From Rathayibacter iranicus NCPPB 2253 = VKM Ac-1602 (GTDB lineage Bacteria; Actinomycetota; Actinomycetes; Actinomycetales; Microbacteriaceae), in assembly GCF_003149025.1 (NCBI RefSeq), contig NZ_QGDV01000001.1:186001-250000 (forward strand): a stretch of 64,000 nt of DNA, read 5' to 3'. The notes beneath the pieces are model-generated. The model was given only the letters and a program-made list of their open reading frames with translations, ran no database searches and was not told the origin of the DNA. The number at the start of each line of letters is the position of its first letter. The first letter of the stretch is position 1. This document shows, piece after piece, positions 29,775 to 34,733 of the stretch. Made by a program: the position numbers and the translations under genes.

Positions 29775-30419
29775 GTGGTTGCCGATCAGATCCATCTCGT
29801 GCGGCACGGCGAGGTATTCAACCCCGACCGGGTCCTCTACGGGCGACTCCCGAACTTCCGGCTCTCGGATCTCGGGCACCGGATGGCCCGCTCTGCAGCC
29901 GACAACCTCCTCGAGCGCAGGCGGCACGTCACCGTCCTGATCGCCTCGCCGCTCCAGCGCACCCAGGAGTCGGCTCAGCCGATTTCGCAGGCGTTCGAGC
30001 TCGAGATTCGCACCGACGAGCGCGTGATCGAGCCGAGCAACCACTTCGAGGGCACGTCTCTCGCCGCCCGCAACTCCGCCCTGCGGAACCCCAAGCACTG
30101 GCCGTGGCTCCGCAACCCGTTCGAGCCCAGCTGGGGCGAGCCCTACCTCGCCATCTCGGCGCGGATGTACGCCGCGATCGAGTCGGCGTGGGAGAAGACC
30201 GCGCGGGGTGACGCCGCCATCGTCAGCCACCAGCTCCCGATCTGGACCGCGCACCGCGCCCTCGCGGGCGAGCGCCTGTTCCACGATCCGCGCAAGCGCC
30301 GCTGCGCTCTTTCCAGCATCACCACGCTCGAGCGGCGGGGCGACGGCTTTGTCGAGGTCGGCTACTCTGACCCCGCCGCCGACCTGCAGGGGCTGGCCAC
30401 CGACGTCGGAGCCGTGTGA
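29775..30419 (+). CDS. histidine phosphatase superfamily protein
   Basis: A 214-residue phosphoglycerate-mutase-like phosphatase. The phosphohistidine motif LVRHGEVFNPDRVLYGR is at about 8-24; a second Arg lies in SPLQRTQESA, and the distal His in IVSHQLPIW. Members act on small phosphorylated metabolites or proteins. It is the first gene of a run that continues without gaps into the cytochrome c assembly genes (next start overlaps the stop), so it may be co-expressed with them; a direct role is unproven. Confidence 0.87.
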   Translation: MVADQIHLVRHGEVFNPDRVLYGRLPNFRLSDLGHRMARSAADNLLERRRHVTVLIASPLQRTQESAQPISQAFELEIRTDERVIEPSNHFEGTSLAARNSALRNPKHWPWLRNPFEPSWGEPYLAISARMYAAIESAWEKTARGDAAIVSHQLPIWTAHRALAGERLFHDPRKRRCALSSITTLERRGDGFVEVGYSDPAADLQGLATDVGAV

Positions 30420-31009
30420 TGCGCCGCCCTCACCCTGCCGTCGCCCTCACTCTGCTGGCCGCGCTAGCGCTCACGGGCTGCACCGAGGATCCGCTCGCCG
30501 ACCAGTACCGCACCGGCAGCAATAAGGGCTACATCTCGGGGGACGGCACGGTCACCGAGATCAGGAGTGACGAGCGCGACGATCCGATCGTCTTCTCGGG
30601 GATGGATGAGAATGGCGTCGCCATCGACTCCGCCGCCCTGGTCGGGCAGGTCGTCGTCATCAACTTCTGGTATGCCAGCTGCGCTCCCTGCCGCGCCGAG
30701 GCCGCCGACCTCGAGAAGGTGCACTCCGAATTCGCCGACAAGGGCGTCTCCTTTGTCGGTGTCAACGTGCGCGACCAGGCGCCCACTGCTGCGGCCTTCG
30801 CCGAGACGTTCGGACTTGGCTACCGCTCGATCGTCGACACCGACTCGTCGGTGCAGCTCGCCTTTACCGGTACGGTTCCGCCGAATGCCGTGCCCACCAC
30901 GCTCGTTCTCGACAAACAGGGTCGCGTCGCGTCGCGCATCCTCGGCCAGCTACAGGAGGCGTCCATCCTCTCGACCCTTGTCGGCGACACGCTCGCCGAG
31001 GGGGAGTAG
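30416..31009 (+). CDS. resA: TlpA/ResA-like thiol-disulfide lipoprotein
   Basis: An extracytoplasmic thioredoxin-fold protein that keeps apocytochrome c CxxCH cysteines reduced for heme attachment; 197 residues. The signal peptide has the lipobox LALTGC (Cys22). The redox site FWYASCAPCRAEA holds Cys89 and Cys92, and the cis-Pro region is VPTTLVLD. The start is GTG at 30416 (overlapping the phosphatase stop) or the next codon, ATG at 30419. It is followed by ccdA, which would supply electrons. Confidence 0.9.
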   Translation: MMRRPHPAVALTLLAALALTGCTEDPLADQYRTGSNKGYISGDGTVTEIRSDERDDPIVFSGMDENGVAIDSAALVGQVVVINFWYASCAPCRAEAADLEKVHSEFADKGVSFVGVNVRDQAPTAAAFAETFGLGYRSIVDTDSSVQLAFTGTVPPNAVPTTLVLDKQGRVASRILGQLQEASILSTLVGDTLAEGE

Positions 31010-31013
31010 CGGC

Positions 31014-31754
31014 GTGGGCGAGATCGTCATCAGCGGTCAACTCCTCCTCGCGGTGCCGATCGCGCTGCTGGCGGGGCTCGTGTCGTTCGCGTCGCCCTGC
31101 ATACTCCCGCTGGTGCCCGGCTACCTCGCCTATGTCGGCGGATTCACCGACGCGACCGAGCGTGCCGTGCGGGGCCGCCGCCGGATTGTGCTCGGAGTGC
31201 TGCTGTTCGTGCTTGGGTTCTCGCTGGTGTTCGTGCTCTACGGAGCGGCGGCCGGTACCGTCGGTTTCTGGCTGCGTCAGTACACGGACGTCATTACGCG
31301 GGTGCTCGGCGTCGTCGTGATCGCAATGGGACTCGTCTTCGTCGGTCAGTTCTCGTTCTTGCAGCGCACACTTCGCCCCGGCCTCCGTCCCGCCACCGGC
31401 CTGATCGGCGCCCCTCTCCTCGGCATCGTCTTCGGCGTGGGCTGGACTCCCTGCCTCGGACCGACTCTGAGCTCGATCCTCGCCCTCAGTTACGGTGTCG
31501 GCTCGCCTTGGCGCGGCGCAGTGCTCGCGTTGGTCTACTGCCTCGGACTCGGCATCCCGTTCCTCCTCGTCGCCTTCGGCTTCAGCTGGGTGACCGGCAC
31601 TCTCGCGGTGGTGAAGCGTCACATTCGCACGGTGAACATCGCCGGTGGAGTCGCCCTCGTCCTGATCGGAGTCTTGATGGTCACGGGCATCTGGAACACG
31701 CTCGTCTATGGATCCCTCTCGGCGGTGATCAATGGCTTCCAGCCGGCGCTCTGA
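31014..31754 (+). CDS. ccdA: cytochrome c biogenesis protein CcdA
   Basis: A 246-residue membrane protein with six helices that passes electrons from cytosolic thioredoxin to the outside thiol protein. The two redox cysteines are in SFASPCILPLVPGYLAYVGG and GVGWTPCLGPTLSSILAL, the paired signature of the family. GTG at 31014 lies four bases after the upstream stop. The end overlaps resB by 23 bases. Confidence 0.93.
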   Translation: MGEIVISGQLLLAVPIALLAGLVSFASPCILPLVPGYLAYVGGFTDATERAVRGRRRIVLGVLLFVLGFSLVFVLYGAAAGTVGFWLRQYTDVITRVLGVVVIAMGLVFVGQFSFLQRTLRPGLRPATGLIGAPLLGIVFGVGWTPCLGPTLSSILALSYGVGSPWRGAVLALVYCLGLGIPFLLVAFGFSWVTGTLAVVKRHIRTVNIAGGVALVLIGVLMVTGIWNTLVYGSLSAVINGFQPAL

Positions 31755-33432
31755 GCCAGGGGAAAGCACGCGCCGCCCGGACGAGGCGACGCAGGAGAAG
31801 ACCGACGCGTCCTTCCGCCCGGCCGACCACTACGACTCCGACGGCTCACTCACGCAGCCCGCGCTCGGGTTCACCGGTTGGCTGCGCTGGATCTGGCGCC
31901 AGATCACCAGCATGCGCACCGCGCTGTTCCTGCTGCTCCTGCTCGCCATCGCGGCCGTGCCCGGCTCGCTCGTACCGCAGCGCTCCTCCGACCCCAACGG
32001 AGTAACGCAGTACTTCATCGACAACCCGGATCTCGCGCCCCTGCTCGATAAGGTCCAGGCGTTCGATACCTACACCTCGGCCTGGTTCTCGAGCATCTAC
32101 CTGCTGCTGTTCATCTCGCTGATCGGCTGCATCATCCCGCGCACTCGCCATCACTTCCAGGCGATGCGCTCGCGTCCGCCGCGCACGCCTGCGCGCCTGC
32201 AGCGCCTCGCCGGCTACACCGTGCGCGAGGTGGAGGGTGCCTCGGAGCAAGAGGCCGTCGCCTCCGCCCACGCCGTGCTGCGCCGCGCCGGCTACCGGGT
32301 CGAGCGGTACGACGACCCGCGCGGGCGCTGGTCGAGCGTTTCTGCCGAGCGCGGCTACCTCCGTGAGACGGGCAACCTGGTGTTCCACTCGGCGCTGGTG
32401 GGCATTCTCGTGGCCGTCGGAGTCGGCGGGGGATTCGGATACAGCGGCCAGCGCGTGTTGGTCGAGGGTTCGCAGGGCTTTGCGAACAACCTCGCGGCCT
32501 ACGATTCCTTCAACCCGGGCCGCTTCTTCGATACCAGTCAGCTCGACCCTTATCAGCTGACGCTTGACGGCCTTGATGTGAAGTACGAGGAGCAGAATCA
32601 GTCGGCGCTCGGCCAACCTGTCGACTTCACCGCGCATGTCACGACGACCGAGCGCGGCGGCGGCTCCGAGGCCCGCACCATCAAGGTCAACGACCCGCTC
32701 GCGATCGGCGGGACGAACGTCTACCTGCTCGGCAACGGCTACGCGCCAACGATCACGGTGCGCGACCCCTCCGGCACAGCGATCTTCACCGACTCCGTCC
32801 CGTTCCTTCCGCAGGATGCCAACCTCACCTCGGTCGGCGTCATCAAGGTGCCGGACGGGCTCTCGGAGCAACTCGGGCTGACCGGGTTCTTCTATCCGAC
32901 GCAGGACGAGCTCCCCTCCGGCGCCTCGACCTCGATCTTCCCCGACGTGCAGTACCCGGTGCTTTCGCTCAACGTCTTCGCGGGCGACCTCGGGCTCGAC
33001 GGCGGAGTGCCCACCTCCGTTTACGTGCTCAATACCGACTCGCTGACCCGGCTCACCGGCGGGAGCACGGGGGTTGCGCCGATCAGCCTCAAGCCCGGCG
33101 ATACGGCCGAGCTGCCGAACGGGCTCGGCAGTGTGACTTTCGAGAACGTGGGAGCGGATCCGACACGCATCGGGACCGATAGCGTGAAGCGCTTTGCCTC
33201 GTTCGATATCCACCACGATGCGACCCAGGGCTGGGTGCTGCTGTTCGCGATTCTGGTGTTGGCGGGCCTGCTCACCTCGCTGTTCGTGCCGCGCCGGCGC
33301 GTCTGGCTGAAGGCGGCGGCGCAGGAGGACGGCGGACTGCTGCTCGAGTACGCGGGGCTCGCCCGCGGCGAGGACCCGCAGCTCGTGCGAGCCGTGCGGG
33401 CGGTCGCGGACCGGCACGCTCCGCTCGACTGA
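31732..33432 (+). CDS. resB: cytochrome c biogenesis protein ResB
   Basis: A 566-residue component of the system II cytochrome c synthase, which exports heme and joins it to apocytochrome together with CcsB. Three helices near the N-terminus (about 60-80, 115-135, 215-240) and one near the C-terminus (about 500-520) flank a large outside domain. Signature text includes LRWIWRQITSMRTALFLLLLLAIAA and ERGYLRETGNLVFHSALVG. It overlaps ccdA by 23 bases. Downstream, a palindromic element and a G-tract separate it from ccsB. Confidence 0.93.
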   Translation: MASSRRSEPGESTRRPDEATQEKTDASFRPADHYDSDGSLTQPALGFTGWLRWIWRQITSMRTALFLLLLLAIAAVPGSLVPQRSSDPNGVTQYFIDNPDLAPLLDKVQAFDTYTSAWFSSIYLLLFISLIGCIIPRTRHHFQAMRSRPPRTPARLQRLAGYTVREVEGASEQEAVASAHAVLRRAGYRVERYDDPRGRWSSVSAERGYLRETGNLVFHSALVGILVAVGVGGGFGYSGQRVLVEGSQGFANNLAAYDSFNPGRFFDTSQLDPYQLTLDGLDVKYEEQNQSALGQPVDFTAHVTTTERGGGSEARTIKVNDPLAIGGTNVYLLGNGYAPTITVRDPSGTAIFTDSVPFLPQDANLTSVGVIKVPDGLSEQLGLTGFFYPTQDELPSGASTSIFPDVQYPVLSLNVFAGDLGLDGGVPTSVYVLNTDSLTRLTGGSTGVAPISLKPGDTAELPNGLGSVTFENVGADPTRIGTDSVKRFASFDIHHDATQGWVLLFAILVLAGLLTSLFVPRRRVWLKAAAQEDGGLLLEYAGLARGEDPQLVRAVRAVADRHAPLD

Positions 33433-33457
33433 CTGCGGCCGCCCGCCGCGCCTCTCG

Positions 33458-33585
33458 CGAAATGTCGCGAGATGCGCCTTTTCGGACACGTGCGACCCCG
33501 AATCTCGCGAGATGCGGGGAGACAGTCGAGATCGTCCGCCGCGGCACCGCATCTCGTCCGTTCGTGCGCATCTCGCGACATTTCG
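33458..33585. repeat. 128-base palindromic element, copy B
   Basis: Perfect 20-base inverted repeats bound it (33458-33477 and 33566-33585; left arm CGAAATGTCGCGAGATGCGC). Nested inside are CGGAC/GTCCG (33483-33487 and 33556-33560), CGAGATGCGG/CCGCATCTCG (33508-33517 and 33547-33556) and a central TCTCGCGAGA. No coding capacity is evident, so it resembles a REP or MITE unit. It shares sequence blocks with the element at 7093-7162. Confidence 0.7.
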
Positions 33586-33653
33586 GGGAAGAAGCGGGGA
33601 AGAAGCGGGGGAGGGGCGGGGAAGAAGCGGGGGGGGGGGGGGGGGGGGGGGGG
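33585..33653. repeat. 11-base tandem repeat followed by a 25-G tract
   Basis: Four 11-base units (GGGGAAGAAGC at 33585, 33596 and 33618, and the variant GGGGGAGGGGC at 33607) run straight into 25 consecutive G (33629-33653). The tract lies where the -35 box of ccsB should be, given the -10 at 33669-33674. Such tracts change length by slippage, so promoter strength could vary between cells. The exact length is also prone to sequencing error. Confidence 0.75.
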
Positions 33654-33668
33654 AGGGCGGGGAGCGAT

Positions 33669-33674
33669 TAGCCT
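33669..33674 (+). promoter_or_regulatory. -10 box (TAGCCT) of ccsB
   Basis: TAGCCT lies six bases before the GTG at 33681. A -35 at normal spacing would fall at about 33646-33651, inside the G-tract. Confidence 0.5.
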
Positions 33675-33680
33675 AGGGAG

Positions 33681-34733
33681 GTGATCGCGATCCTTTCGCA
33701 GTACTCGGTGCTGTGCCTCTCCTCCGCTATGGGTGTGTACGCGCTGGCGTTCGTTTTCTTCGCGATCGACCTCGCCCGCCGCGCTTCTTTGGCCGATGGT
33801 GAGTCGATCGAGGTTGTGCAGGAGGCGGAGCGCGTCGCCTCCGCTGCTGCGGCTGATCGCGCCGCGAACGGCAGGGCCACCGTCGCCACCGTCGGCGGGG
33901 GACGCACCGCAACTCTCTCGCGCCTCGGCAGCCGCGTCGAGGACGAGGTGTACGCCGCCCCCGCTCGCTCGACGGCGATACGCATCGGCTTCTCGCTCAC
34001 GCTCCTCGCGTTCGTGCTCCACGTCGCCGCGACCATCCTGCGAGGCGTTGCCGCCGGCCGCGTCCCCTGGGCGAACATGTACGAGTTCTCGATGACAGGG
34101 ACGCTGATTATCATCGGCGTTTTCCTCGCCGTGCAGCTGCGCTGGGACCTCCGCTTCCTCGGTGCGTTCATCACCGGTCTCGTCCTGGTGCTGCTCGGAG
34201 TCGCGACCGTCAACTACTACGTTGCCGTCGTCCCGCTCCCGCCGGCACTGCAGTCGTACTGGCTCGTCATCCACGTGCTCGTCGCGATCCTCGGCACTGC
34301 CTTTTTTGCCCTCGGCTTCGCGCTCTCGGTCACTCAACTACTCCAGGCGCAGAGGGAGAGTGTCGGAGACAGCCCCCGCTCCGTCCTTCGCTTCCTCCGC
34401 ACACTCCCGGGTTCGCTTACCCTCGAGAATCTCGCCTATCGCGTCACGATCATCGGTTTCATCCTCTGGACCTTCACTCTGATCGCTGGCGCCGTCTGGG
34501 CCGAAAAGGCCTGGGGCCGCTACTGGGGCTGGGACACCAAGGAGGTCTGGACCTTCATCATCTGGACCATCTACGCCGGCTATATTCACGCCCGCGCTAC
34601 CCGCGGTTGGCGCGGCGCCCCCTCCGCCTGGCTCGCCATCGTCGGCTTCGCGGCCGTCATGTTCAACTTCGGCGTCGTCAATGTGTTCTTCAAGGGGCTC
34701 CACGCCTACTCCGGCCTCGACACCGGCATGTGA
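33681..34733 (+). CDS. ccsB: cytochrome c biogenesis protein CcsB/CcsA
   Basis: The heme-handling membrane subunit of the system II cytochrome c synthase; 350 residues, about eight helices. The Trp-rich heme motif WGRYWGWDTKEVW (about 274-286) and conserved His residues (HVLVAILG region, HARATRGW) are visible. An Ala/Arg-rich cytosolic loop occupies about 35-85. I use the GTG at 33681 on the strength of the leaderless -10 box; GTG 33708 or ATG 33729 are alternatives. It is separated from resB by 248 bases of repeats and probably has its own promoter. Confidence 0.92.
   Translation: MIAILSQYSVLCLSSAMGVYALAFVFFAIDLARRASLADGESIEVVQEAERVASAAAADRAANGRATVATVGGGRTATLSRLGSRVEDEVYAAPARSTAIRIGFSLTLLAFVLHVAATILRGVAAGRVPWANMYEFSMTGTLIIIGVFLAVQLRWDLRFLGAFITGLVLVLLGVATVNYYVAVVPLPPALQSYWLVIHVLVAILGTAFFALGFALSVTQLLQAQRESVGDSPRSVLRFLRTLPGSLTLENLAYRVTIIGFILWTFTLIAGAVWAEKAWGRYWGWDTKEVWTFIIWTIYAGYIHARATRGWRGAPSAWLAIVGFAAVMFNFGVVNVFFKGLHAYSGLDTGM

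Follow-up and report, generated by a model that had tools for sequence, protein, structure and literature searches.

The cytochrome c maturation gene ccsB of Rathayibacter iranicus NCPPB 2253 is preceded by a run of 25 G that is most likely a hypermutable by-product, lying beside a repeat and upstream of an intact leaderless promoter driven by its −10 box. In the account that we favor, and consider probable, the run arose by lineage-specific slippage expansion upstream of an old leaderless ccsB promoter, leaving the promoter core intact and its spacing little changed or unchanged.

We analyzed a 64,000-nucleotide stretch of the genome (the window; coordinates are positions in it, and the cluster genes below lie on its forward strand). 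Profile matches uphold the names of the genes of a cluster in the order ResA-like, CcdA-like, ResB, CcsB. A ResA/TlpA-like thioredoxin gene comes first (30416..31009; Redoxin/AhpC-TSA matches, with ResA-like matches below the NCBIfam cut-off), followed by a CcdA/DsbD-like transmembrane gene delimited by the gene caller (31014..31754; PF02683, 4.4e-10), resB (31732..33432; PF05140, 7e-132) and ccsB (33681..34733; TIGR03144, 1.1e-73), which is probably leaderless and begins with a GTG that is conserved in relatives. The nearest named relatives of CcsB belong to Rathayibacter, with R. tanaceti at the top (93%). The gap between resB and ccsB is 251 nt here vs 74–150 nt in the 13 genus relatives with resB adjacent, when counted from the end of the match to ResB residue 566. 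For two divergent ccsB copies, L103 and L104, no resB was found upstream. L104 is a second ccsB of genome G007 (C2:13722-14756; 77% identical), placed on a separate 150-kb contig, and it also has a TANNNT-GTG start.

Read directly, the gap contains four 11-base units at 33584..33627 (CGGGGAAGAAG, CGGGGAAGAAG, CGGGGGAGGGG, CGGGGAAGAAG; three identical and one diverged), which Tandem Repeats Finder reports as period 11 with 4.5 copies. A single C at 33628 separates the units from the G-run, which occupies 33629..33653 and is exactly 25 bases long; it is followed by AGGGCGGGGAGCGAT, the box TAGCCT (33669..33674), six bases, and the GTG at 33681. The 25-G tract behind 11-base tandem repeats described in the first-pass annotation is thus confirmed letter by letter, as the longest G-run of the genome. 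The G-run ranking second in the window, which is 68% GC, has six bases. Genome-wide, on both strands (3.38 Mb, 49 contigs), the run of 25 is followed by a single run of 10, two runs of 9, and six of 8, with all others shorter. A length of 25 lies far beyond this decay of run lengths and marks the run as a strong outlier. We compared 91 ccsB loci (those of 15 genus genomes, the second copy of G007, and 75 other loci), and the upstream 400 nt of the 90 other than the window's hold no more than five consecutive G.

The putative −10 box is widely conserved. TANNNT followed by six (15 loci) or seven (one locus) bases and then GTG stands at all 16 Rathayibacter ccsB loci, the window included. The 75 other loci are the best relatives kept after five named Rathayibacter, and almost all have titles of Microbacteriaceae genera. 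In 64 of them a TANNNT stands 6–8 bases ahead of a GTG that lies no farther than 45 nt from the aligned start, and in 11 it does not; the boxes of the 64 are mostly TAGGCT (37) or TAGGAT (14). A stricter count, using the nearest start codon only and allowing the box anywhere in the last 16 nt, gives 60 of 74. As controls, the TANNNT-N6-8-GTG search matches 5 of 1080 positions drawn at random within window genes, and a box precedes 31 of the 3382 ATG/GTG triplets of the window. Under the same search 15 of 52 other gene starts of the window carry the box, so leaderless-looking starts are common in this genome. The proposal of a −10 box TAGCCT close to the GTG is therefore borne out as a conserved leaderless-type promoter, and the predicted box is better supported than the window sequence alone could make it. 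The TAG of the box doubles as an in-frame stop ahead of ccsB and, by eye, resembles the resB stop in many family members; the promoter reading stands because the third box base is not G in 12 of the 16 genus loci.

Two observations weigh on the leaderless reading. AGGGAGG overlaps the ccsB start region in the window and could be a displaced ribosome-binding site, which counts against it. In Mycobacterium tuberculosis, according to the available part of PMC3898074, leaderless mRNAs are almost absent from respiration and energy genes, and a leaderless ccsB is somewhat disfavored for that reason. The same source describes leaderless promoters with a conserved TANNNT and an unconserved −35, and GTG starts as frequent in leaderless genes as in genes with leaders. 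The ccsB promoter resembles these in its TANNNT just before GTG and in a −35 that is unconserved outside the genus, but it differs in that the upstream DNA is a G-tract and in that its start is deduced from conservation. On that conservation, ccsB is probably leaderless. A literature search on Microbacteriaceae leaderless transcription start sites returned no matching paper. A sigma-70 consensus scan of 33300–33900 gave no match, and a search of the whole window against Rfam at gathering scores found one tRNA and nothing else.

Upstream of the box, 15 nt separate the 3′ edge of the G-run from the −10, and the −35 slots for spacers of 15–19 (33644..33653, + strand) each read GGGGGG. An earlier placement of the −35 slot within the G-run holds as to location, but alignment of the 64 non-Rathayibacter loci on the −10 reveals no conserved −35 hexamer, the only column above 0.6 bit upstream of −4 being a C at −26. 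The accompanying claim that a change in length alters promoter spacing was not borne out: tract length shifts only the DNA upstream of the run, so a change in spacing is not implied, and the −35 slot keeps reading G provided that the tract has about 10 bases or more. Within Rathayibacter, G occupies −23 and −22 at 16 of 16 loci and −21 at 15 of 16, and the divergent copies L102, L103, and L104 also have GGG there, L103 offset by one base. In the window these three positions fall within the run. Such bases would suit a −35 contact and hence may not be neutral; in part their conservation is shared descent. We also considered GGG as a general −35 element for leaderless promoters in Rathayibacter and rejected it. 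Among 48 candidate promoters drawn from 328 called genes, it is most frequent at −24/−23 (11 and 10 of 48), but with ccsB removed it is left in 3 and 1 of 38.

These results bear on whether the promoter is phase-variable, with slippage altering ccsB transcription through spacing or strength from cell to cell so that cytochrome c maturation varies. A long homopolymer does lie in the promoter region, the G's at the −35 slot are conserved across the genus, and the repair background (below) is probably blind to indels. We nevertheless regard phase variation of this kind as improbable: the −35 slot is contained in the run and is still GGGGGG at run lengths of 10 or more, a second fixed element upstream was not found, the upstream motif of the relatives is absent from this genome, the tract is shared by none of the 90 other ccsB loci, and ccsB is presumably a housekeeping-type gene rather than a surface gene. 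The Neisseria porA promoter is phase-variable through a homopolymer tract. For Neisseria nadA, the available text of PMC2791445 likewise describes a homopolymer-tract phase-variable promoter. The ccsB promoter shares with both a long homopolymer in the promoter region (25 G) and presumed slippage. In Neisseria, however, the tract lies between two fixed elements, whereas here it covers the −35 slot and the DNA beyond and does not separate two fixed promoter elements; nor is it kept in relatives with varying length, the other loci having five G at most. A precedent on the side of phase variation is Gardnerella, also an actinobacterium, in which the majority of long G/C tracts are found upstream of genes and linked with phase variation, as reported in the accessible portion of PMC11287997.

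Much of the extra DNA in the gap is one copy of a dispersed, imperfectly palindromic element (33501..33588) that is multi-copy in this genome, on both strands, and sits mostly at gene 3′ ends. An outer inverted-repeat arm at 33446..33477 pairs with 33566–33597 (84%) and has short matches elsewhere in the genome. With the gap sequence as query, we found at least 57 matches in the genome itself, often several per place and on both strands; among relatives there were at least 43 in G012, 6 in the sister genome G002, one in G004, and one each in G010 and G011 to the G-rich part only, with none among the matches scored in the other nine genus genomes. With a single element copy as query, matches appear in at least 9 of 150 family genomes, Rathayibacter accounting for three, and among the matches listed all those outside this genome are at most 67 bp. 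A simple gene caller served to place 20 copies: 6 have convergent neighbors, 11 co-directional ones, and none divergent ones, and for the remaining 3 a neighbor went uncalled; the 17 with both neighbors called are all intergenic. Where the right-hand gene of a convergent or co-directional copy runs towards the element, its stop is no more than 33 nt away (13 of 13 copies). The unclassified copy L253 has a minus-strand gene on its left and an apparent tRNA on its right, which would be a divergent place.

The element also tends to carry G-rich sequence on one side. Over 40 nt of 3′ flank, the mean maximum G-run of the 20 copies is 4.6 vs 2.66 in 190 control intergenic stretches (p = 9e-9). Some of the 20 were found partly through the G-rich tail, and the 11 copies not picked through it give a mean of 4.64 (p = 3e-6); the 5′ flank, read outwards, shows a weaker effect (3.25, p = 0.02). 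A G-rich tail is therefore typical of the element, with the window copy as the extreme. Of the 9 other G≥8 tracts of the genome, 8 were checked, and each is more than 1.5 kb from any element copy, so the element is not by itself enough to produce long runs.

REP elements are dispersed by RAYT transposases. The element resembles them in being dispersed, intergenic, palindromic, and mostly at gene 3′ ends, with many intergenic palindromic copies, but it differs from RAYT-dispersed REP elements in its G-rich flank and in the lack of a Y1 transposase; we rejected a RAYT-mobilized REP since PF01797 matches in 0 of 15 genus genomes (positive control, 5 of 14). The titles and abstract openings of literature on Rathayibacter palindromic repeats and high-GC extragenic palindromes offered no description of the element.

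We weighed the possibility that the G-rich stretch is chiefly an insulator or G-quadruplex block that, together with the palindrome, stops resB transcripts entering ccsB. Copies of the element sit mostly at gene 3′ ends, the RNA of 33496–33600 is predicted to form a hairpin of −52.1 kcal/mol, and 33585–33668 is predicted to fold at −106.4 kcal/mol with quadruplexes allowed vs −4.7 without. The quadruplex energies are model values, however, and a consensus scan of 33300–33900 found no intrinsic-terminator-like site; we hold such a block to be unlikely.

The origin of the run is best seen against the sister genome G002. The promoter-proximal 30 bp (33645..33674, + strand) align to it gap-free with 26 of 30 bases matching, more than at any other place in the window (21 at the next best). 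G002 has GGGGCGGGG opposite nine G of the window, and all four differences go towards G in the window. Position −20 (33649) is C at 11 of the 16 genus loci, T at 3, and A at 1; the window alone has G there, which makes C the probable ancestral base. A second change concerns the motif CTGTGCRTNNGYGCAGG, of which 11 of 15 genus genomes (L212–L222) have a single copy, in each case ahead of ccsB; the pattern was written from the same sequences, and the count is partly by construction while the uniqueness is not. Among the 15 genus genomes searched it is absent from this genome, G002, G009, and G012. It ends about 22 nt before the −10, and its variants preserve an inverted-repeat pattern; it is a candidate activator site or RNA hairpin.

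The repair genes of the genus are consistent with growth of such a run. NucS is present in 15 of 15 genus genomes and MutS_V (the MutS ATPase domain) in none of the 15. In M. smegmatis, the available part of PMC11551767 reports that NucS leaves 1–2 bp indels unrepaired and links this to homopolymer phase variation, and nearly all Actinobacteria lack MutS and MutL according to the accessible text of PMC12649562; the portion of PMC2831843 at hand deals chiefly with poly(A)/poly(T) tracts of coding genes. A slippage-prone background for the slipped-strand mispairing suggested at first pass is thus likely: with NucS and no MutS, slippage in this genus probably goes unrepaired, and since a NucS-only background is probably blind to indels, the run would be expected to be unstable.

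From these observations we infer an order of events. The ancestral state would have been a shorter resB–ccsB gap ending in the conserved TANNNT-N6-GTG core, as in other Rathayibacter. In this lineage the palindromic element with its G-rich flank would have come to lie between resB and ccsB, with the relatives' upstream motif gone. A C-to-G change at −20 (33649) would then have fused GGGGCGGGG, as in G002, into nine G, enough to slip. With NucS and without MutS, indel loops were probably left uncorrected, and the run would have grown upstream to about 25. No indel is present in the −10, in the six bases that lead to GTG, or in the 15 nt between the run and the box. Because this core is without indel and the −35 slot stays G, ccsB should still be transcribed from the −10-driven promoter. 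Tract length probably varies between cells, and any effect on expression would be small, through the shift of upstream DNA, its stiffness, or a G-quadruplex.

Long G-tracts elsewhere help to judge whether the tract could instead be an artefact. Fourteen of the 15 genus genomes, among them this one, have G-runs of at least 10. The genus tracts examined number 41 (the window's and 40 others; those of G004, three of G010, and those of G011–G014 were left out), of which 36 are intergenic, in all orientations, 2 lie in called genes, and 3 lack a called neighbor; the gene caller is fallible, as L180, counted as intergenic, lies in a frame-broken gene. A strong inverted repeat within 110 nt is found on the 5′ side of 8 of the 41 and on the 3′ side of 3, vs 6 of 291 random stretches, by an ungapped score that misses the window's own palindrome (which scores 6). 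That genus G≥10 tracts arise mainly beside palindromes is only partly borne out. By eye, G-tracts at L184, L190, L131, L186, L187, L194, and L196 abut two further palindromes, one GGTCTCGATACGCC...CTACTCGACCAGCA-like and one CGCGAGATGCCACTTGTGCGCG..., with the G-run on their 3′ side.

Two of the tracts touch a regulator gene. L176 (C3:3824-3833 of this genome; 1501–1510 of the locus) is an in-frame 10-G tract in the gene of a regulator whose HTH_18 (AraC-type) match is weak and falls short of the Pfam cut-off. In the single-contig genome G002, L180 (1501–1514) is a 14-G tract at a different codon of a homologous regulator gene, and the frame changes across the tract. The gene is a candidate coding-tract phase-variable regulator.

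Across the family, G-runs of at least 20 occur in 99 of 398 genomes, this one included. We viewed 21 such loci among those listed and 15 look suspect by eye: nine lie at or near a contig end, two beside N, and four are in G/C mosaics or of extreme length. Artefactual poly-G thus appears to be common among assemblies of the family. Our starting assumption that long G-tracts are rare in high-GC genomes therefore fares unevenly, as many family genomes hold 20 G or more but most of the tracts viewed are doubtful. By eye, three loci in other family genomes (L223, L226, L240) have 25–28 G upstream of TAGGCT/TAGGGT-N6-GTG/ATG, near leaderless-looking promoters but farther away than here; L223 begins near a contig end.

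An artefact would mean that the tract is in truth much shorter, or that PCR slippage or two-colour chemistry added to its length. The length of 25 rests on one draft assembly of 49 contigs, the runs reach 16 at most in the five genus genomes assembled into 1–4 contigs (G001, G002, G006, G007, G008; all tracts examined), and on two-channel instruments G carries no label, as stated in the available text of PMC11140927. Mainly because 15 of the 21 family tracts viewed look suspect, the exact figure of 25 is open to doubt. The window tract itself has clean flanks deep within a 527-kb contig, gene order around it is preserved, and the sequence on its 3′ side matches a relative; moreover, absence of signal in reads from the right would be expected to give C, not G, on this strand. 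On balance we think such an artefact unlikely.

One further reading of the tract seems to us very unlikely, namely that the G block is a sliding −35 contact, in register at any length, with length shifting the upstream palindrome and quadruplex and so tuning ccsB. If true, it would be a slippage-tunable yet spacing-proof promoter in a lineage whose mismatch repair probably ignores indels. On the reading that we favor, slippage expansion beside a repeat, a real conserved leaderless promoter can be told apart from a probably incidental hypermutable tract upon it. The dispersed palindrome with its G-rich flank is a repeat family worth its own description, and the locus offers a concrete case for asking whether NucS-only bacteria tolerate, or use, long G-runs beside genes that they need.
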